Source of the DNA: a virus
Strand: one strand, 5' to 3'
Length of the DNA: 45,793 nucleotides
Virus record (IMG/VR): IMGVR_UViG_3300037189_007227
Coordinates: 1 to 45,793 of that record
In this document: piece after piece, positions 4,962 through 42,053 of the stretch
How the letters are laid out: every line of letters starts with the position of its first letter
How positions within the stretch are numbered: position 1 is the first letter of the stretch
Notes under the pieces: model-generated
The model's database searches: none
Told to the model about the DNA's origin: nothing
Seen by the model: only the letters and a program-made list of their open reading frames with translations
Translations under genes and position numbers: made by a program

Positions 4962-5414
4962 CTACTGGTACATGCTGGGCTTGGGGTCCGTGGGCCATGT
5001 CGGTGAGTCACCAAACGTATTACTCTTGGTAATCCGCTGTGTCATCTCGTTCGGCTTCCACGCTTTGTGCACACCGACGTTGGGGGCACTGTTGTCCGTG
5101 TAAAAGTGGTTGGGGTCTTCGTTCTTGGGGTCACCCTTGAGCTGGTAACGGTAACTGACAAACCCGTACTTACCTGCTGTCAATGCTGTCTGTAGGTATC
5201 CCAGCATACGGTGACGCTCTTTTGGCTGGTAGGTGTGCTCTTCTGAGAACTCTTCCCCACCGCCAATGGGCTTGTTGTCTGATGGAACGAACAACCCAAC
5301 ATGGTAATGCTCATTAATCCGCTTGGCCTTTGTGGGGTCAAACGACGGATTGGTAATCTCTTTGAACTGCTGACCTACGCGCGGGTCTTCAGGTTCTAGT
5401 TGATAGAACCCCAT
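4962..5414 (-). CDS. Hypothetical protein
   Basis: 150 residues, unrecognised. It is polar, rich in Pro, Asn, Tyr and charged residues (EEFSEEHTYQPKERHRML), with a more regular middle section (LGYLQTALTAGKYGFVSYRYQL) and a C-terminal PTWPTDPKPSMYQ tail that looks disordered. No cysteines, membrane segments or catalytic motifs are visible. It starts at an ATG five bases after the stop of the gene upstream and belongs to the same run of small genes. Confidence 0.6.
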   Translation of the reverse strand: MGFYQLEPEDPRVGQQFKEITNPSFDPTKAKRINEHYHVGLFVPSDNKPIGGGEEFSEEHTYQPKERHRMLGYLQTALTAGKYGFVSYRYQLKGDPKNEDPNHFYTDNSAPNVGVHKAWKPNEMTQRITKSNTFGDSPTWPTDPKPSMYQ

Positions 5415-5419
5415 TGAGT

Positions 5420-5626
5420 CTACTTACCTGGGTTTACCTGTGCGGGGTACTCTGACGTGGCAAAACCGTAACCGTAGAACGGGTGCAGGCTCTGCTTGTT
5501 GTCGAGTGTCTCTTCGGCGCTTACGCCAGGGATAACCTCGGTGTTGGGGCGTGCCTTGCGGTACTTACCGTCGGTCGAACCCTCGTTAAGGCTTTGGTTC
5601 ATCGAACGCGATGTGTTAACTGCCAT
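5420..5626 (-). CDS. Small hypothetical protein
   Basis: 68 residues. The ATG at 5626 (MAVNTSRSMNQ) is preferred over longer in-frame alternatives because it lies two bases after the upstream stop with AAGGAT placed correctly, the arrangement used by its neighbours. The sequence is polar and lacks clear secondary structure (NEGSTDGKYRKARPNTEV). Function unknown. Confidence 0.6.
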   Translation of the reverse strand: MAVNTSRSMNQSLNEGSTDGKYRKARPNTEVIPGVSAEETLDNKQSLHPFYGYGFATSEYPAQVNPGK

Positions 5627-5628
5627 GA

Positions 5629-5994
5629 TTAGTATCCTTCTGGTCGGCGTCGGTATTCCGACTCGGTTTCTTTCCAATCGGGGTAATTATCCCCATGCGA
5701 GTCATCCGAATAACTGTCCTCATCTAGATAACGACCACGCGGTGAGGAACCGTTGTATTCGTGCCAAAGGTCTTCGTTAGCACCCGAGTTGGTAAATCCT
5801 TCGTGGCATTTATCGCAGACATCCCCTCCCGCATTTGCTCGCGAGAAAAACAGCTCATCTTCGGGGTGATGTCCAAAGTCCTCATTTTTATCAACTTCAT
5901 GGCTTGTCAGCTTATTGCCGCAAGACTGGCATGTTGGAGAGAAGTCTACTTTGCGCTTGGGGTCGTGTGCACGGTTGGGTACTGGTTCGGACAT
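5629..5994 (-). CDS. Zinc-ribbon hypothetical protein
   Basis: 121 residues. Two cysteine pairs, CQSC (22-25) and CDKC (60-63), separated by 34 residues form a likely zinc ribbon with an acidic intervening loop (DKNEDFGHHPEDE). The C-terminal half is very acidic and aromatic (LDEDSYSDDSHGDNYPDW) and may be disordered or mimic nucleic acid. It is one of several adjacent Cys-pair proteins in this block. No family recognised. Confidence 0.6.
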   Translation of the reverse strand: MSEPVPNRAHDPKRKVDFSPTCQSCGNKLTSHEVDKNEDFGHHPEDELFFSRANAGGDVCDKCHEGFTNSGANEDLWHEYNGSSPRGRYLDEDSYSDDSHGDNYPDWKETESEYRRRPEGY

Positions 5995-6003
5995 GATTAA
6001 TCC

Positions 6004-6225
6004 TTAACGGTACTTGTAGCCAACGTGACCGGTGTGGTAACCGGTAACGATTGCTTCTGCGGAATCTTTGGTGGTAAATGGCTGACCGCAACCCTTGCAA
6101 GTACTGTGCTGCTTCAGGTCAGTGATGAGGGGGTTACCCTTGGAGTCAACATTCTTGGCGAGGAGGGCGTCAATATCTGCCTGACGTACCTTGTTGTTGG
6201 CGCGGTTCGGTGGGTTGGTTGCCAT
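6004..6225 (-). CDS. Small zinc-finger-like protein
   Basis: 73 residues from the ATG at 6225, which overlaps the upstream stop as TAATG; an upstream in-frame start would lie inside the preceding gene. CKGC is followed 21 residues later by HTGH (GYHTGHVGYKY), a C2H2-like arrangement suitable for one zinc ion. The N-terminal half is polar with a helix (RQADIDALLAKNVDSKG). A DNA- or protein-binding role is possible but unproven. Confidence 0.6.
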   Translation of the reverse strand: MATNPPNRANNKVRQADIDALLAKNVDSKGNPLITDLKQHSTCKGCGQPFTTKDSAEAIVTGYHTGHVGYKYR

Positions 6226-6425
6226 TAGGCCAACTTGCCTTTCACTCGCTTTGACATCCGGTGCTCTCGGCACTGGGGGCAAAGACCCTTACTCATCATG
6301 AACTCTACGGGGTTCATAATCACACCACATTGGGGGCATGGTGCAGACCCTTTATATAGGGTAGCATTTTTGGCAATCTGTTGTGCCTGAAGTTCTAGCG
6401 TAAATCCGCCGTCGCCATCATCCAT
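6225..6425 (-). CDS. Small zinc-ribbon protein
   Basis: 66 residues with two CPQC motifs (30-33 and 49-52) 15 residues apart, a classic small zinc ribbon, ending in a basic tail (REHRMSKRVKGKLA). The start codon overlaps the stop of the upstream gene (TAATG) and its own stop overlaps the next start. Proteins of this shape bind nucleic acids or other proteins; the target is unknown. Confidence 0.65.
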   Translation of the reverse strand: MDDGDGGFTLELQAQQIAKNATLYKGSAPCPQCGVIMNPVEFMMSKGLCPQCREHRMSKRVKGKLA

Positions 6426-6601
6426 TAGTCGTTCTCTTCCATGTTCTCTTGGATTGCCCTTTGCCTGTTGGCTTGACGGGAACCCTTCTCATCAGGACTC
6501 AGGTGCGGTTGAGCAATGCTGCTACGCAAGTGCTCGTTCTTTGCTTCCATCCACGCTTTGTTCTCGGTTGCGCGGCTTTTGCGGCCTCGTTTCGGGTTCA
6601 T
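6425..6601 (-). CDS. Very small basic protein (58 residues)
   Basis: Read directly from the sequence: ATG at 6601 overlapping the upstream TGA as ATGA, and TAA at 6425-6427 overlapping the next ATG as TAATG. It begins MNPKRGRKSRATENKAWMEA and is highly charged, with a basic N-terminus followed by helical, Glu/Gln-rich sequence and no hydrophobic core. The double stop-start overlap and continuous spacing argue that it is a real gene in the operon. It may bind DNA or RNA; nothing more can be said. Confidence 0.65.
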   Translation of the reverse strand: MNPKRGRKSRATENKAWMEAKNEHLRSSIAQPHLSPDEKGSRQANRQRAIQENMEEND

Positions 6602-6984
6602 TTCTTACCCGAACTCAAGTTCTCGTATGAATAATTATACACGTGGTCATTTAGCTCTTTAGCATCCAACGCGTTTTCTTGTGAACGGTCATCCTTTGGA
6701 ACGAATGCACCATTAATCAGCTGTGATGCGGAACGACCGTGCTCAGCTGCGGTGAACAGGTGAGCCATGGCTGATTCTGGGTCTCCTGCTGAGTGGTACA
6801 GAATCGAGTCTTCAATTGAGTTGTGCGCCTTGTCGATGTGGTGAGTAATTGCTCCGGCAAGTTCCGTTGTGGCTGCTTCGGGGTTACCCTTTGCGTGTAC
6901 CATTGCACGAATTGCAAACTCTTGGAGTGTGCGAGCCATTGCTTTGTGGTGCTCGGATGGCTTAGTTGAACCGAGTCTAATCAT
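6598..6984 (-). CDS. Hypothetical helical protein
   Basis: 128 residues; the ATG overlaps the upstream stop (TAATG). The sequence is alanine-rich and helical (KAMARTLQEFAIRAMVHAKG; LAGAITHHIDKAHNSIEDSI), with pairs of histidines and regular spacing suggesting a helical bundle. No catalytic motif or cysteine is present. It precedes the tiny basic gene, to which it is coupled by ATGA. Confidence 0.6.
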   Translation of the reverse strand: MIRLGSTKPSEHHKAMARTLQEFAIRAMVHAKGNPEAATTELAGAITHHIDKAHNSIEDSILYHSAGDPESAMAHLFTAAEHGRSASQLINGAFVPKDDRSQENALDAKELNDHVYNYSYENLSSGKK

Positions 6985-7367
6985 TAGTCAGACCCCAAAC
7001 TGTTGCGGGATGAACCGGAGTAACTTCCGATTCCACCGGAGTACCAAGAAACGCGAGGTTCCGTGTACACACGGTCAATGCTTACAACATCTTCAATTTC
7101 GGGCTGTGTGCGCGGTCCCCAACCAAAACGGTCTGGGAACTGACGAATCTGTGGCAGCGGTGGTTTTACCAACTGCTGGAGCTGTGCGCCTGGAATGGTG
7201 GCAACAACCAATGCTTGCTGAATCAATCGCTCTTGGTTGGATGCCCAAGGTCCCAGGTACGACCAGTTCTGCTCGTCTGAGGTCGGTGCCACATACGGGT
7301 TACCAGAACCACCGGGGCCATCCCACGGCTTTGTCTGGTCGTAATTGCCATCAAATCTGGAGGTCAC
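6984..7367 (-). CDS. Hypothetical protein
   Basis: 127 residues. The GTG at 7367 is chosen because GGAG lies just upstream and the spacing to the previous stop (TAATCGTG) matches neighbouring genes; an in-frame TTG at 7379 is less likely. The sequence is rich in Gly, Ser, Asn and Trp (WDGPGGSGNPYV; WSYLGPWASNQERLIQQAL) with a short helix in the middle and a Ser/Gly-rich end. It resembles its next neighbours in composition, possibly virion-associated, but no family is recognised. Confidence 0.55.
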   Translation of the reverse strand: MTSRFDGNYDQTKPWDGPGGSGNPYVAPTSDEQNWSYLGPWASNQERLIQQALVVATIPGAQLQQLVKPPLPQIRQFPDRFGWGPRTQPEIEDVVSIDRVYTEPRVSWYSGGIGSYSGSSRNSLGSD

Positions 7368-18170: not shown

Positions 18171-19739
18171 TTAGGTGGACTGTACTGAAAGAAAGCTTAG
18201 CAGACTGCCTACGGAAAGGTCGATACCGCCACGCGCGTTGATTCCCTCACCATCAAGAACCGCTCCTGCTACCGCACTCTTTTGCTTGAGCATGTCGTAC
18301 TGACGCTGCTCAATGGAACCGTCTACCAAGAAATCTTGAATGGTAATGCTAGGCCACTTGGAAGATGTTCGGTTGATGCGACCGTTGCGCTGAACCGACA
18401 TACCCGCTGACCATGGCTGGTCAAAGTTGACGAGCAGGTTTGCTTGTGGGAGGTCAACGCCGTAACCACCAGCGTCCGAGCTAACGAGTACGCGAACGTC
18501 TGGTTCTGTCTGGAAACTTACTTTGCTCTCTTCTTTTTCCTTGGCGTTCATCTTGCCTGTGTACGGAAGTGCCTTGTAACCCTTTGCGTTGAGTCGCTCA
18601 ATGATGTGGGATACCGAACCGAGGTACGACGAGAAAACAACCGCCTTGTATGTAGGGTCGATTTCGAGGTGGTCGGAAAGATAAGCTACACAAGCGTCGA
18701 GTTTTGGATACTTGGTAAACCCTTCAAGTAAACCGTCCTCACCCAACTCAAATGCGTAACTACTTCCGGAACCATTCTGTGCTGCAAAGTTGTGGTAGCT
18801 GTCAATCAGCAAGTCGGGGCTGGAGCACAGCTGACGAAGAGCGGTGATTCGAGCCATGAGTTCTCCGCGCATGCCGTTGGCTGGGTCGCTGGAGTCATTC
18901 CACTGACCATAGTGCGAAGCAACATTGAAGTTTGCTCCGAACATCAAGCTGGCTTCCAACAGCATCTCTTGAAGGTCTTTGGCAATGTAGTTGTAGAGTT
19001 TGCGCGTACGCGAATCAAGCGTGACAAGTATTGGCTCGCGGTACGTGGCATCGGGTAGGAAGGGCTTTACATCCTCGTCGGTCTGTGACTTGCGCACCGT
19101 GTGCTCTTGGAGTCGTTCGTGCAAAACGGGGAGGTTGCGGTAACGCTGTACTCCACCAAAATGATTGCGGACAATAAAGGTGTTGTCAAACAGGTCAAAG
19201 CGTCCCAGGACATCTTTGTTTACGAACTGCATGATTGAGTACACCTCTTCTGGGCGACCGTTCTCAATTGGAGTTCCTGTAAGCGCAAACTTTACGGGGA
19301 TGTTCTTGGCGAGTTCCTTTACCTTCTTTGCTCGCTTTGCCCTGAAACCTTTAATGGCGGTTGCTTCGTCGCAAACGATTGACGAGAAAGAGAACTGCTT
19401 GAGCGTCTCCCAGTCATTGACTACCTGTTCGTAGTTCATGATGACGTAGTTGTACTCAGTGCTCTCTGCGTACTGCTTCTCTCGCTGCTTTGGAGTTCCG
19501 TCGATGACAATCGCGGTAGAGTCGCTGAACTTCTCAATCTCCGTCTTCCACTGATACTTGAGGCTTGACAGGCACAGTACCAGCGTAATGTCCGAGGGGT
19601 CCTTGCGGAGTTCCTCGATAGCAGCAATGGTCATGGGCGTTTTGCCTAGACCCATTTCATAGGCAACAAGAATCTTTTTCTTGTCAACCATCTTTTCTAC
19701 AGCCTCAATTTGGTAAGGCTTAAGTGTTCCCTTAAACAT
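18171..19739 (-). CDS. SNF2-family DEAD/DEAH-box helicase
   Basis: 522 residues from ATG 19739 (MFKGTLKPYQ), nine bases after GGAG; ATGs a few codons upstream, inside the primase gene, cannot be excluded. Motifs in order: Q-motif YQIEAVEKM, Walker A EMGLGKT (28-34), CDEATAIKG (motif II), LTGTPIENG (motif III), and in the second lobe SSDAGGYGVDLPQANLL with SVQRNGRINR (motifs V-VI). SNF2 ATPases translocate on duplex DNA and strip proteins or remodel forks; phage members probably act in replication or recombination. It overlaps the primase gene by eight bases. Confidence 0.9.
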   Translation of the reverse strand: MFKGTLKPYQIEAVEKMVDKKKILVAYEMGLGKTPMTIAAIEELRKDPSDITLVLCLSSLKYQWKTEIEKFSDSTAIVIDGTPKQREKQYAESTEYNYVIMNYEQVVNDWETLKQFSFSSIVCDEATAIKGFRAKRAKKVKELAKNIPVKFALTGTPIENGRPEEVYSIMQFVNKDVLGRFDLFDNTFIVRNHFGGVQRYRNLPVLHERLQEHTVRKSQTDEDVKPFLPDATYREPILVTLDSRTRKLYNYIAKDLQEMLLEASLMFGANFNVASHYGQWNDSSDPANGMRGELMARITALRQLCSSPDLLIDSYHNFAAQNGSGSSYAFELGEDGLLEGFTKYPKLDACVAYLSDHLEIDPTYKAVVFSSYLGSVSHIIERLNAKGYKALPYTGKMNAKEKEESKVSFQTEPDVRVLVSSDAGGYGVDLPQANLLVNFDQPWSAGMSVQRNGRINRTSSKWPSITIQDFLVDGSIEQRQYDMLKQKSAVAGAVLDGEGINARGGIDLSVGSLLSFLSVQST

Positions 19740-20709
19740 ACGCTGCATCTCCATACAGGAAAAACTTGGAATTGTCAATACCCCAAGCTATTTCTTCGTC
19801 TGTCAAATCTCCTGGGTCTTTCTTTCCGGAATCCCCGTAGTTAAAGAAGGATAGGTTGAGACCATAGGTCAGCGCAAGGTCGAGCATTTCTTTGGACGCC
19901 TTTTGACCTGCAGGGTCGACCTTGGGGTTGTCGAAAGCAGCGATGACACGGCTTGCGCTACGCAACAGCTTTATCTGGTCTTCGCTCACTGACGAACCAC
20001 AGATTGCTACCGCTCCCATGAATCCAGCAGTGTAAAGCCGTGCGCAATCCAAGGGCGACTCAACAACATACACGGTATCTTCATCAAGCATGTTGAGGCC
20101 AAAAAGAGTTCGTGACTTAGGAAGACCAGGTGGTCTGTTCATAAAACTCCTGGTCAGAGTGCCTTTCTCCTGCCAGCCAAGCAGCCTGTGAGTGCGAGGC
20201 TCGCGGAAAGGGAACACCCACGAAGAGTTCTTAGCGTCCCACAGGATGCCGTAAGCACGAGTTGACTCCAGAGAAATGTTTCGTGACTGGAGTTGCTCTA
20301 GCGGAGGGTCAACAAATACTGCGAGTCGTGCGTCCGACATCTCGAGCGGCTTTGGTGCCGAGGAGATACGGGTTGGGATACGGCTAAGTTCTTCTGCCAG
20401 CTTGTCTGGTGAAACTTCGGTGATGGTTGACAACCACACCTTTGCGGAGTCGTAGTCATACTCCCTGACATCGCCCCAAGATGTGAGGTAAAACTCTTTG
20501 ACATCGCAGATGAGTTGGTAGATGTTTCCCTTGTAGTGGCAAGAAAAACAAATGTGCTGACCCGTGCTGAGGTTGACCCACCACGAAGGAGAGTTATCCT
20601 GCTTTCCAGTACGCTCAAGGTGCATCGGGCAAAGACCCAACGCCTCATTGCCTCGGACGTCTGTCTCGAGGCCAAGTTCTTCTAGAACGAGTTCAATGTC
20701 AAGTTCCAT
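19732..20709 (-). CDS. DnaG-like primase (zinc finger plus TOPRIM)
   Basis: 325 residues; ATG 20709 overlaps the helicase stop (TAATG). The N-terminal zinc finger has CPMH (27-30) and CFSC (54-57), then SPSWWVNL and the primase core. A TOPRIM domain is shown by TVYVVESPLDCARLY (catalytic Glu) and the later VIAAFDNPKVDPAG aspartates. It synthesises RNA primers for lagging-strand replication by the phage polymerase. It lacks the long C-terminal helicase-binding domain of bacterial DnaG and is encoded apart from DnaB rather than fused to it. Confidence 0.88.
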   Translation of the reverse strand: MELDIELVLEELGLETDVRGNEALGLCPMHLERTGKQDNSPSWWVNLSTGQHICFSCHYKGNIYQLICDVKEFYLTSWGDVREYDYDSAKVWLSTITEVSPDKLAEELSRIPTRISSAPKPLEMSDARLAVFVDPPLEQLQSRNISLESTRAYGILWDAKNSSWVFPFREPRTHRLLGWQEKGTLTRSFMNRPPGLPKSRTLFGLNMLDEDTVYVVESPLDCARLYTAGFMGAVAICGSSVSEDQIKLLRSASRVIAAFDNPKVDPAGQKASKEMLDLALTYGLNLSFFNYGDSGKKDPGDLTDEEIAWGIDNSKFFLYGDAAYV

Positions 20710-21959
20710 TAGAGGTTCCCGTAGGGTACGCAGAACTTGCAACTGTTTCCAGCAACCTCATCGTGGAAGCAACCAGTGTCCCACTTCCAAGTCATCAGGT
20801 TTTCCTCGGGTCCACAGTTACGCGACTGGACCACACGGAGCAAACGCTGTTCCTCGTTAGCCTCAACAGGCTCGAGACCAAGGATTACATCCGAGTCTTG
20901 GAAGAACGATGACGAGTAACCGATGGAGTCAGCAGAAACCTTACTGCCCTTCATCTTCCAAAGCAGGGTCTGCGTGGTGATGACGACAGGGATGTCGAGT
21001 TGCTGTGCTACGCGCTTGAGTCCACGAGTGATGTTGGTCAGTGCCTGAGGCGTGTTGGAATCTCCCGTGACTTGGTCAAGCATCAGGTACACACCATCAA
21101 CAAAAAGAATGTCTGGCTTTAGCTGGTCTGCCTTTGCCAGCAGAGCGTCAATCGTAAGTCCGTTGACGGCATCTACGAGGTGGAAGGGGTGCTGAGTAGC
21201 CATCTCCTCAAGCATGGATTTATACCGCTCCTCTTCCTGCTGGTTCAGCTTTCCTCGACGCAGGCTGGTGTGGTTGAGGTGGGCACGCATGGCGTCGTGA
21301 CGCTGAGACTGCTCGTGGTTGTTCATCTCAAAAGACTGGAACATTGGAACTTTGCCGACCTTGTGGGTGTTGATTGCAACCTGCAAAGCAATCTGCGACT
21401 TACCCGTCTTGGGTGGAGCAATGACGGTAATCAACTGTCCCCCTTGCAGTCCTGCGGTTGCCTCATCAATCTTTGCAAAGCCTGTGGGAATGCCAAGGAA
21501 CTCTGCGCCCTGAACATTCTCATACTCAAGAAAACGATTCGTTGGGTCTTTCGACAGGTCGATGTGGTGAGTACCAATCTGACCCTGCTCGTTGACAAGG
21601 GTAACCGTCTTCGACATCTCGTTGACGGCTGCCTCGTGGTCGTTTGTGCGAAGCAACTCAACAACACTGTTGGCACCAACTAGGGCGAGGCTACGGCGAC
21701 GGAACTCGACCATCTTGTCGATGAGGTAGTCAATCGAATCTTCAACATTGATTGCCTCAAAGTTTGGGAAGTTATCCCGAACCGTGGTGTAGGTGGGAAC
21801 CTCACGGTAGCGACCGTAATGTTCTCGCACAAACTTCCATACGCGACGAAGGTCATCGTCAACTACCCAGTCATCCTGAATACCCTGCTCTAGTACAGGG
21901 ATGATGTTGCGGTCAATGATGACCTTGCTGAGTAGCCGATACTCGTTGTCGTGTGCCAT
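20709..21959 (-). CDS. dnaB: DnaB-like replicative helicase
   Basis: 416 residues, ATG with GAGGG upstream. The N-terminal ~110 residues are the helical DnaB_N-like region; the RecA-like motor has TGFAKIDEATAGLQGG, Walker A APPKTGKS (181-188), FEMNN (E211) and Walker B DILFVDG, then VVITTQ. It is a hexameric 5'-3' helicase loaded by the DnaC-like protein encoded at 22702-23424. The C-terminus ends with CFHDEVAGNSCKFC (C397, C407, C410), a possible zinc knuckle not usual for DnaB. Coupled to primase downstream. Confidence 0.92.
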   Translation of the reverse strand: MAHDNEYRLLSKVIIDRNIIPVLEQGIQDDWVVDDDLRRVWKFVREHYGRYREVPTYTTVRDNFPNFEAINVEDSIDYLIDKMVEFRRRSLALVGANSVVELLRTNDHEAAVNEMSKTVTLVNEQGQIGTHHIDLSKDPTNRFLEYENVQGAEFLGIPTGFAKIDEATAGLQGGQLITVIAPPKTGKSQIALQVAINTHKVGKVPMFQSFEMNNHEQSQRHDAMRAHLNHTSLRRGKLNQQEEERYKSMLEEMATQHPFHLVDAVNGLTIDALLAKADQLKPDILFVDGVYLMLDQVTGDSNTPQALTNITRGLKRVAQQLDIPVVITTQTLLWKMKGSKVSADSIGYSSSFFQDSDVILGLEPVEANEEQRLLRVVQSRNCGPEENLMTWKWDTGCFHDEVAGNSCKFCVPYGNL

Positions 21960-22400: not shown

Positions 22401-22705
22401 TTCAGTACCTGAATCGGTGCGTGGTGCAGGAGCAGGTCCCTGAACAGGTCGGCATCTTCCATAGCCGTCTTGATGGTTTCATCGCTGACATCTTCGGGGA
22501 GCCGAACTGAGAAAACACCGTTGTTCTCTTCGATGATGTTCTTTACATAGCGAACGTGCTTGCAACGCTTACCTTGCTTGTATACATCACAGGTGCAACG
22601 CATCCGCTTGTACTCTTCAGCATCAGCCTCAACTTCATGGACGCCTTCGTCGGACAAGAAGAACTGAACTGTTCGCCAATCAATTCCCACGCTCGCGCCT
22701 TTCAT
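22397..22705 (-). CDS. SWIM-like zinc-finger protein
   Basis: 102 residues, coupled on both sides by ATGA overlaps. After an N-terminal beta-hairpin (TVQFFLSDEGVHEVEADAEE) comes C-T-C-x8-C-K-H (MRCTCDVYKQGKRCKHVRYV), the C-x-C-x(n)-C-x-H signature of SWIM zinc fingers, in the usual position after two strands. SWIM domains mediate DNA or protein contacts in recombination and chromatin factors. Its place between DnaB and the helicase loader suggests it joins the replication or recombination complex; this is inferred. Confidence 0.75.
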   Translation of the reverse strand: MKGASVGIDWRTVQFFLSDEGVHEVEADAEEYKRMRCTCDVYKQGKRCKHVRYVKNIIEENNGVFSVRLPEDVSDETIKTAMEDADLFRDLLLHHAPIQVLK

Positions 22706-23424
22706 CGTGCTTTCCTCAAGTCTTCTCCTCCTAGTTTAACCCTTCTGAAAGCTTCGTGTGCGAAACTCTGCATTGCTTCAGAATAAGTTTCATCCCAATC
22801 GTTGAGGTCAACGTTGGTCGTAATAATCGTGGGCAGTCCTTTGTCGTACCGCATTCGAATGATGCTGTCGAAAGAGAACTTGTCGTACTCTGAGCCGTAC
22901 TCCTTGCCGACATCATCTAGGACGAGTAGGCGGACGTTGTAGGCGTCATCTCGTGCTCGCCCATAAAAGCCATCGAGTTCATCCTGAAGTCGTGCCCGCT
23001 CATCCGAGTCTGCGTCAAACAGCGCCTTGGTTCGGTAAAGCAAGTCTGTCATCGTCAGGTAGTAGACGGGTCGGAACTTGAGACCGTACGAGTTGGGGCT
23101 GACGTGAAGAAGCCGACACGCCTCGAGCTTGTCATCAGGGATTGCGCGAACAAACTCATTGAGGACGGATACCGCGTGAGTAGTCTTACCGCGCCCTGGA
23201 GCACCATCAAGTAGGAGTCCGACACCCGTAGTGCCAACGTCTCCGAGGTTGAGGATTACCTTGCCAGAGGTCAGGTCATCAAACCAGTCCGTGAGACTGA
23301 AGGGGAGCTTTCCTAGACCATCGACAATGTTCTGGAAGTCCCACTTCTGGTAGCGCATTGGGATGTTTGCACCCTTGGTTAGCCAATGGCGTTTCATCGG
23401 CTCCATGGTGGTGAGGTCAAACAC
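22702..23424 (-). CDS. DnaC-like helicase loader (AAA+ ATPase)
   Basis: 240 residues from GTG 23424, seven bases after AAAGGA; the longer frame lies inside the initiator gene. Walker A is GAPGRGKT (74-81), Walker B LLVLDD (D170, D171), followed by sensor-1 IITTN and an arginine-rich end (FRRVKLGGEDLRKAR). It should load DnaB at the origin, like lambda P or DnaC. It overlaps the initiator gene by eight bases, giving the same initiator-loader order as lambda O-P. The last residues form ATGA with the SWIM gene. Confidence 0.88.
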   Translation of the reverse strand: MFDLTTMEPMKRHWLTKGANIPMRYQKWDFQNIVDGLGKLPFSLTDWFDDLTSGKVILNLGDVGTTGVGLLLDGAPGRGKTTHAVSVLNEFVRAIPDDKLEACRLLHVSPNSYGLKFRPVYYLTMTDLLYRTKALFDADSDERARLQDELDGFYGRARDDAYNVRLLVLDDVGKEYGSEYDKFSFDSIIRMRYDKGLPTIITTNVDLNDWDETYSEAMQSFAHEAFRRVKLGGEDLRKAR

Positions 23425-24517
23425 TCTTGTTCCTTTCAATGAGTTTCTGCTCGTAACGCGCCAGTGCTGCTCGACCAGCAAGCGTGTTCTCGAACTCCTG
23501 TCCGTCTGAAGCATACAGGGGCAGAGTTTCGTCTACGTAAGCAATGCCCTCTTCCGGCGTGTCGCCCGCTGGGTCTGTGTCCATGCCCAAGTTTTTGTAT
23601 GCCTTCTGCAGGTGGCTCTTGAACATGTTGAGGTATCGCCCATGTACCTTTGCGGGGTCTTTCTCAATGTTGTAGAGATTGTGGGCATCCGCGAAAAACA
23701 TCCGCATGAGTTCCAGCTCCACTGGGGCAGTGATGCCGTACTGGTTGCGGTACTTCCGTAGCGCACCAGTCAATGCCTGGATGTTGATGAGTCCTGGGGT
23801 GTAGGGGAACTTCCGCCCCATGCGGTAACTGAACTCTGCGGCAACATCGTATGCCGACCACTCATGCTCTGGACGACGTCCACGAGTCTTGGCATCCCGC
23901 TTGTTGACGGGCTTACCTGAAACCTTCTGCGGTTCATCCAGAAGTCCGAAGCCTCCAAGGTCATCATCGCCACTGGTGTCCTCACCGCGTGGTCGCCACT
24001 TCTCAGAACTCAAAACAACCTCCTTCATTTCGGACACACCCTCGGTGTGTGCATGTAAATACGTAGTATTTACTTCCCTACTTACTTGACTACTAGTAGT
24101 TAACTTACCTGTACCAACTGGTACCACCTGACCACCTGTTGACCCCACAGCCTTGTGGGATGGTGACTCCGACCACCCCACAGCCTTGTGGGATGGTGAC
24201 TCCGACCACCCCACAGGTTTGTGGGATGGCTCAGGTTCTGAATCCACAGGATTGTGGGATGGTAGAACCAACTGATAAATGTTGCGCGACCACTTGCCCA
24301 AGTTGCGCTTGGTTCGTGTGGTTGCCAAAATACCTACCTTCTCCAGCCCTCTGAAGGCCCTACGAAGGCTTTCGGAGCTATACCCAGTAAGGATGCTCAA
24401 CTCGTCCGTTGTGGCCTCTACGCGCCCCTCAGGGCTTGCTAGGTGGTACAGAGAAACGGCAGTCTTAAACTCGACCGCGCTTAATGGGGTCGCAAAAAAC
24501 TCAGATGGTAGATTCAT
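23417..24517 (-). CDS. Replication initiator with internal iterons (lambda O-like)
   Basis: 366 residues, ATG with GAGGG upstream. Residues 10-88 form a winged helix (TTDELSILTGYSSESLRRAF, wing around TKRNLGKWSR). Four 11-residue repeats beginning PSHN/PSHK (86-129) are encoded by DNA that forms four inverted-repeat iterons, then a linker of about 90 polar residues and a helical C-terminal domain (about 225-320). This is the domain order of lambda O: DNA-binding head, origin inside the gene, C-terminus for the loader. It should bind the iterons and recruit the DnaC-like protein. No homology is claimed beyond architecture. Confidence 0.8.
   Translation of the reverse strand: MNLPSEFFATPLSAVEFKTAVSLYHLASPEGRVEATTDELSILTGYSSESLRRAFRGLEKVGILATTRTKRNLGKWSRNIYQLVLPSHNPVDSEPEPSHKPVGWSESPSHKAVGWSESPSHKAVGSTGGQVVPVGTGKLTTSSQVSREVNTTYLHAHTEGVSEMKEVVLSSEKWRPRGEDTSGDDDLGGFGLLDEPQKVSGKPVNKRDAKTRGRRPEHEWSAYDVAAEFSYRMGRKFPYTPGLINIQALTGALRKYRNQYGITAPVELELMRMFFADAHNLYNIEKDPAKVHGRYLNMFKSHLQKAYKNLGMDTDPAGDTPEEGIAYVDETLPLYASDGQEFENTLAGRAALARYEQKLIERNKSV
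24034..24258. other. Predicted replication origin (iterons plus AT-rich palindromic region)
   Basis: Inside the initiator gene. Four iterons occupy 24144-24258. Adjacent, at 24034-24124, are an ACACACC/GGTGTGT repeat (24034-24050), GTAAATAC-GTA-GTATTTAC (24055-24073), the palindrome ACTACTAGTAGT (24089-24100) and GTACC-AACT-GGTAC (24111-24124), in a visibly AT-richer stretch around 24053-24110 that could unwind. Lambda has the same order: iterons within O, then an AT-rich segment further along the gene. Function is inferred from layout. Confidence 0.75.
24144..24258. repeat. Four 16-bp inverted-repeat iterons at exact 33-bp spacing
   Basis: Copies at 24144-24159, 24177-24192, 24210-24225 and 24243-24258 read CCCACA-NNNN-TGTGGG (the last begins TCCACA). 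Starts are exactly 33 bp apart, about three helical turns, so bound proteins would face the same side. The shared block extends to GATGG after each right arm. 33 bp equals 11 codons, so the protein repeats too. The symmetric arms are not needed for coding the peptide, which argues for selection on the DNA. Confidence 0.9.
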
Positions 24518-39593: not shown

Positions 39594-40244
39594 TTATGTC
39601 GTAATGGTGAATTCCGCTGGCCCAAGATACGTATTCGGAAGGTCGCCAGGACGAACTCCCAAGTACTCTGCACTTGGCGGAGTAATTGTGATGGATTGAA
39701 CTTTTGCAAGCTCAAAGATTTGACCGTCCAGCAACTCCGAAGAGACGCGGGCAGTAATCGCGTTAACAAAAAGACGCTTTGCCTGCTCAGTGCTATCGCG
39801 CTTTGAAATGTCGGTGATGTCCAAACGTCGAACAGTACCGTCATCCAACTCAAGATACCCAAAACGAATTGGGAAAACAGTGGAAAGAAGTTGCGAAATG
39901 ATTGCGCGGTCATGCCGTGGGTGACGAGCATACGTAGTGATTTGGTAGTCGATAGTTACCGGAATGGGGTAGTGAGTATTGAAGCTCGAGTTTTCCGGCA
40001 AATCTGAGGGGGTAAGGTACGAGGGCGATACCATTCCGCGCATTTCTCGCGAAGGGTCGCGCATGACATCAATCATGTCAATGGTGATGTACGGGTAGTT
40101 CTGGGTACGGATTTCCTGGTCAGGCTGCCCAAACCAAACACCAACCGGACGGGGCGTAGAAGCGCCATCCGCTTTCTGGTCGTTTACAGTAATGCCCTGA
40201 AGCTTCTCACGAAGGGCCTTGTCTTCAGAAAGTAGGAACGTCAT
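39594..40244 (-). CDS. Tail terminator/completion-like protein
   Basis: 216 residues, ATGA with the neck gene. The sequence EKLQGITVNDQKADGASTPR, VRDPSREM is preceded by YPYITIDMIDVM, then PVTIDYQITTYARHPRHDRA, a line frequent in tail completion proteins that cap the tail and join it to the neck. Position between neck and sheath supports it. Family is inferred from motif and place; I cannot tell terminator from sheath-stabilising protein. Confidence 0.6.
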   Translation of the reverse strand: MTFLLSEDKALREKLQGITVNDQKADGASTPRPVGVWFGQPDQEIRTQNYPYITIDMIDVMRDPSREMRGMVSPSYLTPSDLPENSSFNTHYPIPVTIDYQITTYARHPRHDRAIISQLLSTVFPIRFGYLELDDGTVRRLDITDISKRDSTEQAKRLFVNAITARVSSELLDGQIFELAKVQSITITPPSAEYLGVRPGDLPNTYLGPAEFTITT

Positions 40245-40552
40245 AGGATTCCCTTCAAGCTGTTCGATAGGTGCTCCATGTAACTCTTTGCACCAACGCC
40301 AGGGGTGTTACCGTACTTGCGCAAAACAGCGGTAGGACGAGTGTTCTCATCACCAAACTCGTGCACAAATGCACGGCCCGATACCTCAGGGTCAACCTGA
40401 GTAACGTATGCGTCACCGTCATACTTCACGTGAAGACCAGCAACAACGTCGGGGTGCCACCCACTCTTGAGCGCACGTTCGCGAAGTTCTGCGGTCATCT
40501 GGGTAGCAGCGTGCTCGGCGGCCTGCTTCATGTGCTCTTTATGATGAGCCAT
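40241..40552 (-). CDS. Head-tail joining (HK97 gp10-like) neck protein
   Basis: 103 residues, GGAGG upstream of the ATG. The helical start (KEHMKQAAEHAATQMTAELR), GLHVKYDGDAYVTQVDPEVS and the GRAFVHEFGDENTRP stretch follow the gp10-like neck family, where the F-x-E-x-G motif is conserved. It should sit between portal/adaptor and tail terminator. Small, soluble, normal length. Assignment rests on position and these residues. Confidence 0.65.
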   Translation of the reverse strand: MAHHKEHMKQAAEHAATQMTAELRERALKSGWHPDVVAGLHVKYDGDAYVTQVDPEVSGRAFVHEFGDENTRPTAVLRKYGNTPGVGAKSYMEHLSNSLKGIL

Positions 40553-40672
40553 TACTTACCTCCTTCAGGTGCGAAATGCGAGTGTGCGGGTACGCCAAAC
40601 GACGTACGGCAAATTCGTTCAAACATTTCGCAAAATCCCCAGTAGAGGCGCAGGTCCGGCAAGCCGGGTAGA

Positions 40673-40686
40673 TATTCGCACGAATA
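40673..40686. promoter_or_regulatory. Palindrome downstream of a TATCCT box
   Basis: TATTCG-CA-CGAATA is a six-arm inverted repeat. It lies 12 bases downstream (minus strand) of TATCCT (40698-40703), a box also found at 4936-4941. A second hairpin, CCGGC-AA-GCCGG, follows at 40656-40667. Together with the terminator at 40707-40730 these occupy most of the 196-base gap 40553-40748, the longest in the window. It looks like a terminator then a new promoter with an operator, but no -35 is evident. Confidence 0.4.
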
Positions 40687-40706
40687 CCTACTCTTCTAGG
40701 ATAGAG

Positions 40707-40730
40707 AAAAGCCCCACTAAAAGCGGGGCT
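40707..40730 (-). terminator. Intrinsic terminator after the lysine-rich gene cluster
   Basis: AGCCCC (40710-40715) and GGGGCT (40725-40730) pair around a nine-base loop; on the minus strand the stem is followed by TTTTC, a normal U tract. It follows the last small lysine-rich gene by 19 bases and separates those genes from the neck and tail operon downstream. Confidence 0.75.
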
Positions 40731-40748
40731 AACTCTTGATGCTTGAGG

Positions 40749-40946
40749 CTACTTTTTGGTGGATTTAATCCGTTTTGCCAAAGCATTGTCCTTCTTGGTG
40801 TCCTGCGCCTTGGTAAGGGTCTTGTCCTTATCCATCTTGGCGTCTTCCTTCTTGAACTTTGCCTTCTGTGCAGGAGTCATGCCCTTCATGGTCTTTGCGT
40901 CCTGCTTCTTGTCGGCAGCGGTGCCGATGTACTTCTTGGTTGCCAT
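40749..40946 (-). CDS. Lysine-rich small protein
   Basis: 65 residues, coupled to the next gene by TAATG. About a third of residues are lysine (KKYIGTAADKKQDAKTMKGM; KAKFKKEDAKMDKDKTLTKA). It has no hydrophobic core and is probably disordered or a single charged helix. Composition suits nucleic-acid binding or virion-packaged basic protein. It is the first of five small Lys-rich genes. Confidence 0.6.
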   Translation of the reverse strand: MATKKYIGTAADKKQDAKTMKGMTPAQKAKFKKEDAKMDKDKTLTKAQDTKKDNALAKRIKSTKK

Positions 40947-41119
40947 TACTTCTTCTTGCCCTTCTGAGCCATTGACTCCATCTTCTTTACGCCGTACTTC
41001 TTGATACCGGCGGCTGCAGCTACAGCGGCGGGGTTCTTTGCTCCAGACTTCTTTGCCTCTGCTTCAACCTTCTTGAAGCGCGAGCCTTCGCCCAATGCGG
41101 CTTTCTTCTTCTCAGCCAT
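40946..41119 (-). CDS. Lysine/alanine-rich small protein (57 residues)
   Basis: Read directly from the sequence: ATG 41119 overlapping the upstream TAA, TAA 40946-40948 overlapping the next ATG. It begins MAEKKKAALGEGSRFKKVEA and contains AAVAAAAGIKKYGVKKMESM before a basic end. The stop-start overlaps on both sides make it a real member of the cluster. Histone-like in composition; function unknown. Confidence 0.65.
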   Translation of the reverse strand: MAEKKKAALGEGSRFKKVEAEAKKSGAKNPAAVAAAAGIKKYGVKKMESMAQKGKKK

Positions 41120-41430
41120 TACTTGTCCTTCTTGTTGTCGAGCCGCTTGCCGATTGCTGCGGCCTTCTTCTTTGCGTCAGCCTTACTACTTGCTCCCCAC
41201 GCCTGAAGAGACAGCAGAAGTCTAGTTGGTTTGCCGTTGATTGTGTGCTCAGGTCCCGGCATGTTTCCCATACGCGCCAAGAACGAGGCACGACGAGGGT
41301 TGTCGCCAGACTTTACGGGAGCCTTCAAGTCAGAGCCAGGGTGTGCCTTCTCATAGGACTTACGGCCCTTTTCATTGAGGCCACCCTTAGCGTTCTTGCC
41401 CTCTTTACGCTGCCAAGCTTCACTTGCCAC
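41119..41430 (-). CDS. Basic small protein of a phage-associated family
   Basis: 103 residues, GTG start overlapping the neighbour by 11 bases. The line WQRKEGKNAKGGLNEKGRKS, then YEKAHPGSDLKAPVKSG and FLARMGNMPGPE, is a pattern I have seen in several phage hypothetical proteins (DUF6321-like, recalled from memory and not verified). It is basic with no cysteine or membrane part. The role is unknown; it may be a small structural or DNA-associated protein. Confidence 0.6.
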   Translation of the reverse strand: MASEAWQRKEGKNAKGGLNEKGRKSYEKAHPGSDLKAPVKSGDNPRRASFLARMGNMPGPEHTINGKPTRLLLSLQAWGASSKADAKKKAAAIGKRLDNKKDK

Positions 41431-41626
41431 TGGTCTTCTTCTTTCGTGCGATTGCGATGTTATCTACAGCGTTGGGGTAGGGACGACCCGCCGCCTTAGC
41501 TCGAGCCTTAGCCGCAGCTTCCTGCTTTGGGGTCAAGTCTTTGTGAGTTTTCTTGGGATTCTTCTTGTCCCAGACTTCTTTAGCCATTCTTTTGGCTTTT
41601 GTCTTTACCGCACTTGCATTGTCCAT
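41420..41626 (-). CDS. Lysine-rich small protein
   Basis: 68 residues, ATG six bases after the HNH-like gene's stop. It is strongly basic (KTKAKRMAKEVWDKKNPKKT; KQEAAAKARAKAAGRPYPNA) and mostly helical or disordered. It overlaps the following gene by 11 bases. Similar in composition to its neighbours, suggesting duplication and divergence or one shared biochemical need. Confidence 0.6.
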   Translation of the reverse strand: MDNASAVKTKAKRMAKEVWDKKNPKKTHKDLTPKQEAAAKARAKAAGRPYPNAVDNIAIARKKKTSGK

Positions 41627-41632
41627 TACACA

Positions 41633-41923
41633 TTATTTTTTGTGCTTCTTTCCCTTACGGAGGTGGTCTTCTTTTGCTACGTTCTTGCTGTGGCTCATTG
41701 CTTGGAGATTACTGAGGGCGTCGTGGCCCTTGTTGCTGTCTTTGTGGTCAACATCAGTATTTTTATCTAGCTTGCCGTGCTTCTGCTCATACTCAAAACG
41801 AGCAGCATCAGTGCTAACAGTCTTCCACTTACCGTCAACTTTTTTGTGCCCAACTTTGATGCGACGACCGCCGTTTTTCTCAGAACCCTTGAAGGTTCCC
41901 TTTACCCAGTGAATCTCAGCCAT
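41633..41923 (-). CDS. HNH-like endonuclease protein
   Basis: 96 residues. The C-terminal part DVDHKDSNKGHDALSNLQAM, SHSKNVAKEDHLRK has the D-H ... N-x2-H-D-x-L-x-NL layout of HNH endonucleases of the AP2/HNH_3 type, with the second histidine and the helix that follows. The N-terminal half is basic with strands (RIKVGHKKVDGKWKTVSTDA). It could be a free-standing homing-type nuclease or a packaging nickase; cysteine knuckles are absent. Confidence 0.7.
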   Translation of the reverse strand: MAEIHWVKGTFKGSEKNGGRRIKVGHKKVDGKWKTVSTDAARFEYEQKHGKLDKNTDVDHKDSNKGHDALSNLQAMSHSKNVAKEDHLRKGKKHKK

Positions 41924-42053
41924 TTTTCTTTTTCTTCTTAGTAACTTTTTTAGGAAGCGGCTTTCCCTTAGGAGTGTGCTCTTCCCATTCTTTTGCCATT
42001 TTCGGATGTTGAGAGTACATCCAGGCCCGCTGTGCTTGAGACTTAAACGGCAC
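41916..42053 (-). CDS. Tiny basic phage protein (45 residues)
   Basis: Read directly: GTG 42053 two bases after the upstream stop (TAATCGTG), TGA at 41916-41918, overlapping the HNH-like gene by eight bases. It begins MPFKSQAQRAWMYSQHPKMA and continues KEWEEHTPKGKPLP with a poly-lysine end. This MPFKS-AQ-WMY-HP-A-W-HTPKG pattern recurs in small proteins of many unrelated tailed phages. Function is unknown but conservation argues for a real gene. Confidence 0.7.
   Translation of the reverse strand: MPFKSQAQRAWMYSQHPKMAKEWEEHTPKGKPLPKKVTKKKKKNG

Follow-up and report, generated by a model that had tools for sequence, protein, structure and literature searches.

It is rare for the replication origin of an uncultured phage to be placed with confidence. 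A 45,793-nucleotide viral sequence (IMG/VR record IMGVR_UViG_3300037189_007227; hereafter, the window) carries regularly spaced inverted repeats inside a gene for a winged-helix protein, and we asked whether these repeats mark the origin of the phage and how such an origin might work. An earlier note on the window had proposed a lambda-type origin inside the initiator gene. This proposal is well supported by an O-like profile, by the loader, DnaB, and primase genes, by the register of the repeats in relatives, and by covariation. Judging from sequence comparisons, we consider it highly likely that the locus is a lambda-like, initiator-embedded replication origin with a two-domain initiator, hairpins, and a second translation start. 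Comparison of 69 nonredundant relatives took us from the repeats of one window to an origin that is defined, has named parts, and can be tested.

Initiator gene and replication operon

The initiator gene (positions 23417 to 24517, minus strand) encodes 366 amino acids, comprising a winged helix (residues 1 to 85), a disordered linker (residues ~90 to 205) whose coding DNA holds the candidate origin, and a helical C-terminal domain (residues 208 to 365). AlphaFold2 predicted the two folded domains with confidence and the linker as disordered. The profile PHROG 678 (replication initiation O-like) matched 44 of 46 family members through the winged-helix part (best value, 1e-11); in the window's initiator, the match extended from the winged helix into the beginning of the linker. 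The earlier note claimed no sequence similarity to lambda, which, at the level of profiles, was slightly too cautious. No Pfam O model for the initiator was present among the matches listed (25 families). In fold comparisons, the winged helix resembled transcription regulators and proteins deposited as replication initiators. The C-terminal domain had no Pfam or PHROGs match, no convincing PDB match, and no Foldseek match below an E value of 1. A lambda P-like assignment of this domain was set aside because the best aligner match, which was to lambda P (Z score of 5.2 over 82 residues), was tied with designed helical repeats.

The initiator gene opens a replication operon, in which it is followed by a DnaC-like helicase loader gene (22702 to 23430, minus strand), two small genes, and genes for a DnaB-like replicative helicase (20709 to 21959, minus strand) and a DnaG-like primase with a zinc ribbon and a Toprim domain (19732 to 20742, minus strand). 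The order loader-DnaB-primase was constant in relatives wherever the contig was long enough. The earlier note described the loader gene as overlapping the initiator gene. A DnaC-like loader does follow, and the overlap reaches 98 bp only when the first possible start of the loader is used. The GTG near 23430, which is preceded by AAAGGA, is a likelier start than the alternative ATG at 23514, because most relatives align from approximately residue 31; the real overlap is therefore probably only a few bases.

Palindromic iterons within the coding sequence

Four CCCACA-N4-TGTGGG repeats are located in the initiator gene between 24144 and 24258. Copies of CCCACANNNNTGTGGG begin at 24144, 24177, 24210, and 24243 (three exact and one with a single mismatch), giving start-to-start distances of 33, 33, and 33 bp, and the match scan thus confirmed the arrangement that had been reported earlier. 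In gene sense (minus strand), iteron 1, which has the mismatch, occupies 24243 to 24258, iteron 2 occupies 24210 to 24225, iteron 3 occupies 24177 to 24192, and iteron 4 occupies 24144 to 24159. No other copy with zero or one mismatch exists in the window; at up to two mismatches, seven matches were found across the whole window, compared with 2.2 expected. The perfect spacing is in part the product of recent tandem duplication, since the units of iterons 3 and 4 (24142 to 24207) are identical over all 33 bp.

The spacing also equals 11 codons, and the iterons encode an 11-residue repeat, PSHKxVGWSES, in the open reading frame (ORF) from 24517 to 23417 (minus strand). When codons were resampled synonymously, a mean of 11.7 of the 24 dyad positions were paired, compared with 23 in the actual sequence (0 of 20,000 trials as high), and the three perfect palindromes were never regenerated.

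Relatives of the initiator and covariation with the iterons

Direct searches found no similar initiator in sequenced phages, and short peptide patterns of the window's initiator had no match among viral contigs. DnaB was therefore used as a bait. This search yielded 80 viral contigs, to which the initiator alignment added more, and removal of sequences at least 90% identical left 69 nonredundant initiators. A scan of the collection for paired iterons of the window type found none. The pattern TCAACAGC...TACTWCGTA led to 117 newly fetched loci, only 17 of which belonged to the family, and the rest were treated as chance matches.

The earlier note had suggested checking whether the spacing is conserved in relatives. 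Initiators that are approximately 46 to 57% identical to that of the window have in most cases retained the repeats, which are then spaced by 33, 66, or 99 bp. More distant relatives, whose winged helices are of other types, have different palindromes as iterons (TGTTTCA, TGCCTC, and AGTAACA types) at varied spacings; the 33-bp spacing is thus a feature of the window's clade. Relatives with unrelated linker peptides still encode palindromic iterons. Among 28 genes in which the iterons were clear, their similarity was correlated with that of the winged helix (Mantel r of 0.62; 0 of 2,000 permutations as high), and this correlation was the same after controlling for the C-terminal domain, whose own correlation with the iterons was 0.12. 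This covariation is the best sequence evidence in support of the winged helix reading the iterons. Iterons above the codon null were undetected in about a third of the relatives, and the major class of the hairpin described below (hairpin 1, C-TNC-G loop) is missing from about 40% of them; each element therefore appears to be dispensable across the family.

Junction and AT-rich zone

The family linker has a common order: iterons, a TCAACAGCTGA junction, an AT-rich TAG/TAA zone, hairpin 1, hairpin 2, a Shine-Dalgarno sequence, and an in-frame start. In the window, the conserved junction motif reads TCAACAGGTGG (24132 to 24142, minus strand) and follows the last iteron. It is adjoined by an AT-richer zone (24074 to 24131) with TAG/TAA-type triplets and two palindromes (24111 to 24124 and 24089 to 24100), which is a candidate unwinding element. 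AT content peaks, at 65%, between 24060 and 24119. Across the family, the AT content before hairpin 1 was 66%, compared with 52% for whole genes, and TAG/TAA triplet pairs in this zone numbered 46 and 46, compared with 6.5 and 10.5 expected from synonymous codons.

An AT-richer stretch with four more inverted repeats beside the iterons had been described previously, and these palindromes were recovered between 24034 and 24124 (24034 to 24050, 24055 to 24073, 24089 to 24100, and 24111 to 24124). All four are real; what had gone unrecognized is that two of them (24034 to 24050 and 24055 to 24073) form a hairpin pair conserved in the family (hairpins 2 and 1, respectively).

Other searches were negative. 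No near-consensus DnaA box was found between 22.2 and 25.0 kb, and the region thus lacks the combination of DnaA boxes and DnaA-trios. Cumulative GC skew gave no origin signal, and its range was matched in 179 of 500 block shuffles of the sequence. An Rfam search gave no match. Elsewhere in the window, an unexplained excess of T over A on the plus strand was observed at 5001 to 7000 and 40001 to 42000 (AT skews of about -0.23 and -0.26, respectively).

A conserved hairpin with an N4-type loop

Hairpin 1 (24055 to 24073, plus strand) has a perfect 8-bp stem and a 3-nucleotide loop. The template (plus) strand reads C-GTA-G, and the coding strand reads C-TAC-G. A hairpin with a 3-nucleotide loop and arms 8 bp or longer was detected in 52 of 69 genes (1.1 expected). 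Forty of the 69, all among these 52, have a C-TNC-G loop (C-GNA-G on the template strand); in this class, the stem is exactly 10 bp in 31, and 27 different arms occur. Coding versions mostly have stems of exactly 10 bp, and the split-gene versions described below have stems of 12 to 14 bp.

The stems vary and remain paired. Among sequences selected for carrying the hairpin, 420 of 440 stem positions were paired (195 expected), and positions 2 to 10 each showed two to four Watson-Crick pair types. Nearest relatives differed by 44 two-sided and 6 one-sided changes, an excess that this selection favors. G.T pairs occurred at only 2 of 760 positions. In L083, from a Microbacteriaceae metagenome assembly, hairpin 1 is preserved in another reading frame. 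DNA folding energies did not distinguish the two strands of hairpin 1. A terminator reading of hairpins 1 and 2 was rejected after a scan gave no terminator-like site there.

In the early promoters of phage N4, a C:G closing pair and a loop with a 5' G and a 3' A are required for hairpin extrusion, and the stem can have any bases that pair (PMC4496689). The C-GNA-G loop on the template strand and the variable but paired stem of hairpin 1 both correspond to this type. Additionally, GNA loops give DNA mini-hairpins of unusual stability, although the examples studied require two or more G-C pairs (PMC4686876), which is more than hairpin 1 has next to its loop. Because of the N4-type loop rule, the paucity of G.T pairs, and the stability of GNA loops, we favor, with moderate confidence, the view that hairpin 1 acts as a DNA hairpin.

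A sister clade (L111, L120, L123, L125, L135, L143, L146, L147, and L149) is without hairpin 1. Ahead of the ribosome site, its members have GAAACACC-GAA-GGTGTTTC (GGA in L149), which places C-GNA-G on the coding strand and not on the template strand.

Probable internal translation start and split initiator genes

Hairpin 2 (24034 to 24050, minus strand; ACACACC-GAG-GGTGTGT) lies just upstream of an internal ribosome site. The Shine-Dalgarno sequence AAGGAGGT (24018 to 24025, minus strand) ends 4 nucleotides before an in-frame TTG, from which a 198-amino-acid product consisting only of the C-terminal domain is predicted (23417 to 24013, minus strand). Of the three start codons, TTG is usually the least efficient. 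In the family, a Shine-Dalgarno match of at least 5 nucleotides precedes the internal start in 48 of 66 genes, compared with 22 expected under synonymous resampling (maximum, 28) and with 6 to 8% of control windows. G.T pairs were present at 26 of 325 positions of hairpin 2, a count biased upward because G.T was allowed when stems were chosen.

Four relatives (L069, L188, L220, and L232) have a split initiator gene. Their winged-helix ORF ends just after the wing; the junction, the AT-rich zone, hairpins 1 (with arms of 12 to 14 bp) and 2, and the Shine-Dalgarno sequence sit between two ORFs; and the C-terminal domain is an ORF of its own with an ATG. The frame of the C-terminal domain happens to be open for longer upstream in L188 and L232, but its only start preceded by a Shine-Dalgarno sequence adjoins the domain. 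The four are similar to each other, lack demonstrated repeated iterons, and probably represent one lineage rather than four independent events. Since the junction, the hairpins, and the ribosome site are kept in the split genes, they would act as DNA or RNA and not via the peptide; the split-gene phages are thus a natural experiment that separates the role of the DNA from that of the protein linker. The internal start is real at least in these phages, because the C-terminal domain is a separate ORF there, and a separate C-terminal protein is probably made in the unsplit phages too.

In one further contig (L193/L100), the winged-helix and C-terminal parts lie in different frames and overlap within the iterons (positions ~2061 to 2198). 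This may be a second kind of split, but the contig was left out of the split count because a sequencing frameshift is possible.

Proposed mechanism and alternative explanations

We propose that the origin is the DNA that codes for the disordered linker between the two folded domains of the initiator. The winged-helix domain would bind the palindromic iterons, probably as one dimer each, and this binding would open the adjoining AT-rich zone of TAG triplets. The phage DnaB helicase may then be loaded onto the opened strand by the C-terminal domain together with the DnaC-like loader. Supercoiling or opening of the region would probably let hairpin 1 extrude as DNA on the template strand, where it may mark the distal boundary of the bubble or a site of priming. 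Hairpin 2, the Shine-Dalgarno sequence, and the in-frame start would form a second translation start, by which the C-terminal domain may be supplied as a short protein besides the full-length initiator. A more speculative form of this model is a double-stranded DNA phage origin in which an N4-type, supercoil-extruded template hairpin is the priming or loading signal and a two-protein initiator has a start codon inside the origin; we advance it tentatively, as possible rather than probable.

One alternative is that hairpins 1 and 2 are RNA elements controlling only translation from the internal start, with the origin being limited to the iterons and the AT-rich zone. In split and unsplit genes alike, the internal ribosome site comes directly after the two hairpins, and hairpin 2 tolerates G.T pairs (26/325). 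However, hairpin 1 is nearly devoid of them (2/760), although RNA would tolerate G-U, and its loop fits the C-GNA-G rule for the N4 template strand (PMC4496689). We judge this purely RNA-level role unlikely, though deserving of serious consideration.

The palindromes themselves might instead be operators through which the winged-helix protein represses its own operon, with replication starting elsewhere. Such a role would agree with the likeness of the winged helix to Crp/MarR/DnaD-type regulators and with the covariation between this domain and the palindromic sites. The sites nevertheless lie deep inside the gene, with no sigma-70-like promoter found near them; the conserved AT-rich zone, triplets, and hairpin would be unusual for operators; and the gene heads a loader-helicase-primase operon and encodes a protein of a family with the O-like initiator profile in 44 of 46 members. 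Autorepression is therefore quite improbable as the explanation. Selection on the peptide repeat PSHKxVGWSES, with the DNA palindromes as a by-product, would account for a 33-bp period of 11 codons and for the two identical, duplicated units. Pairing far above that in synonymous resampling, the predicted disorder of the linker, and the palindromic iterons of relatives with unrelated peptides make this explanation scarcely credible. The initiator-embedded origin remains our preferred reading.

Comparison with known replication origins

In lambda and its Stx phage relatives, the origin lies in the middle of the initiator gene O and consists of inverted-repeat iterons and an AT-rich stretch, followed by the loader gene (PMC5043065, PMC7466680). 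The window shares inverted-repeat iterons inside the initiator coding sequence, an AT-rich region directly on their C-terminal side, a helicase loader gene directly downstream, and an O-like profile on the winged helix. Unlike in lambda, the loader is DnaC-like, its profile not being that of lambda P; DnaB and primase are encoded by the phage itself; and searches with the C-terminal domain found no relative. The papers on lambda cited here describe no C-GNA-G hairpin, triplet zone, or internal translation start (PMC5043065, PMC7466680). The oriL of SPP1, in gene 38, contains repeats and an AT-rich unwinding element, and SPP1 has its own loader and DnaB-family helicase (PMC6316719). The window resembles it in all of these respects, a likeness drawn from the description and not from sequence; the SPP1 repeats are described as direct, whereas those of the window are palindromic.

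The basal unwinding unit of bacterial oriC combines DnaA boxes with DnaA-trios, TAG-type triplets in the melting zone (PMC10201434). The window likewise has double-strand sites followed by TAG-type triplets, but it differs in having no DnaA boxes nearby, a winged-helix initiator, and triplets on both strands. Hairpin 1 is like the N4 early promoter hairpins in its three-base loop, C:G closing pair, 5' G and 3' A on the template strand, and variable paired stem. In contrast to those hairpins, the stem in the window's family is longer (8 to 14 bp), and the position is an origin rather than an early promoter. No N4-type single-subunit RNA polymerase was found among the larger phage proteins scanned, in a record that may be incomplete. 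If hairpin 1 acts as DNA, N4-style hairpin signals would be extended from promoters to a replication origin.

Short in-frame initiators are known from plasmids, namely, TrfA-33 of RK2, pi30.5 of R6K, and RepR' of pIGRK; the internal start of RepR' has been mapped, and RepR' still binds origin DNA (PMC6854812). The internal Shine-Dalgarno sequence and in-frame start of the window likewise predict a second, shorter initiator from the same gene. Unlike RepR', the predicted short form is entirely without the winged helix. The internal start suggests a two-module supply of the initiator, for which we found no description in a phage. The combination of elements, the hairpin above all, was not found in the open-access full-text literature searched.

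Host and gene content

An actinobacterial host for the window phage is plausible, if weakly supported. The hint comes from a single metagenome-assembled Microbacteriaceae contig (L083; CANGGL010000064.1) with a hairpin-bearing relative; this contig may be a phage binned into a Microbacteriaceae metagenome-assembled genome. Besides the replication operon, the phage encodes a family-A DNA polymerase, RecA, an SSB-like protein, an SNF2-type helicase, and a contractile tail.
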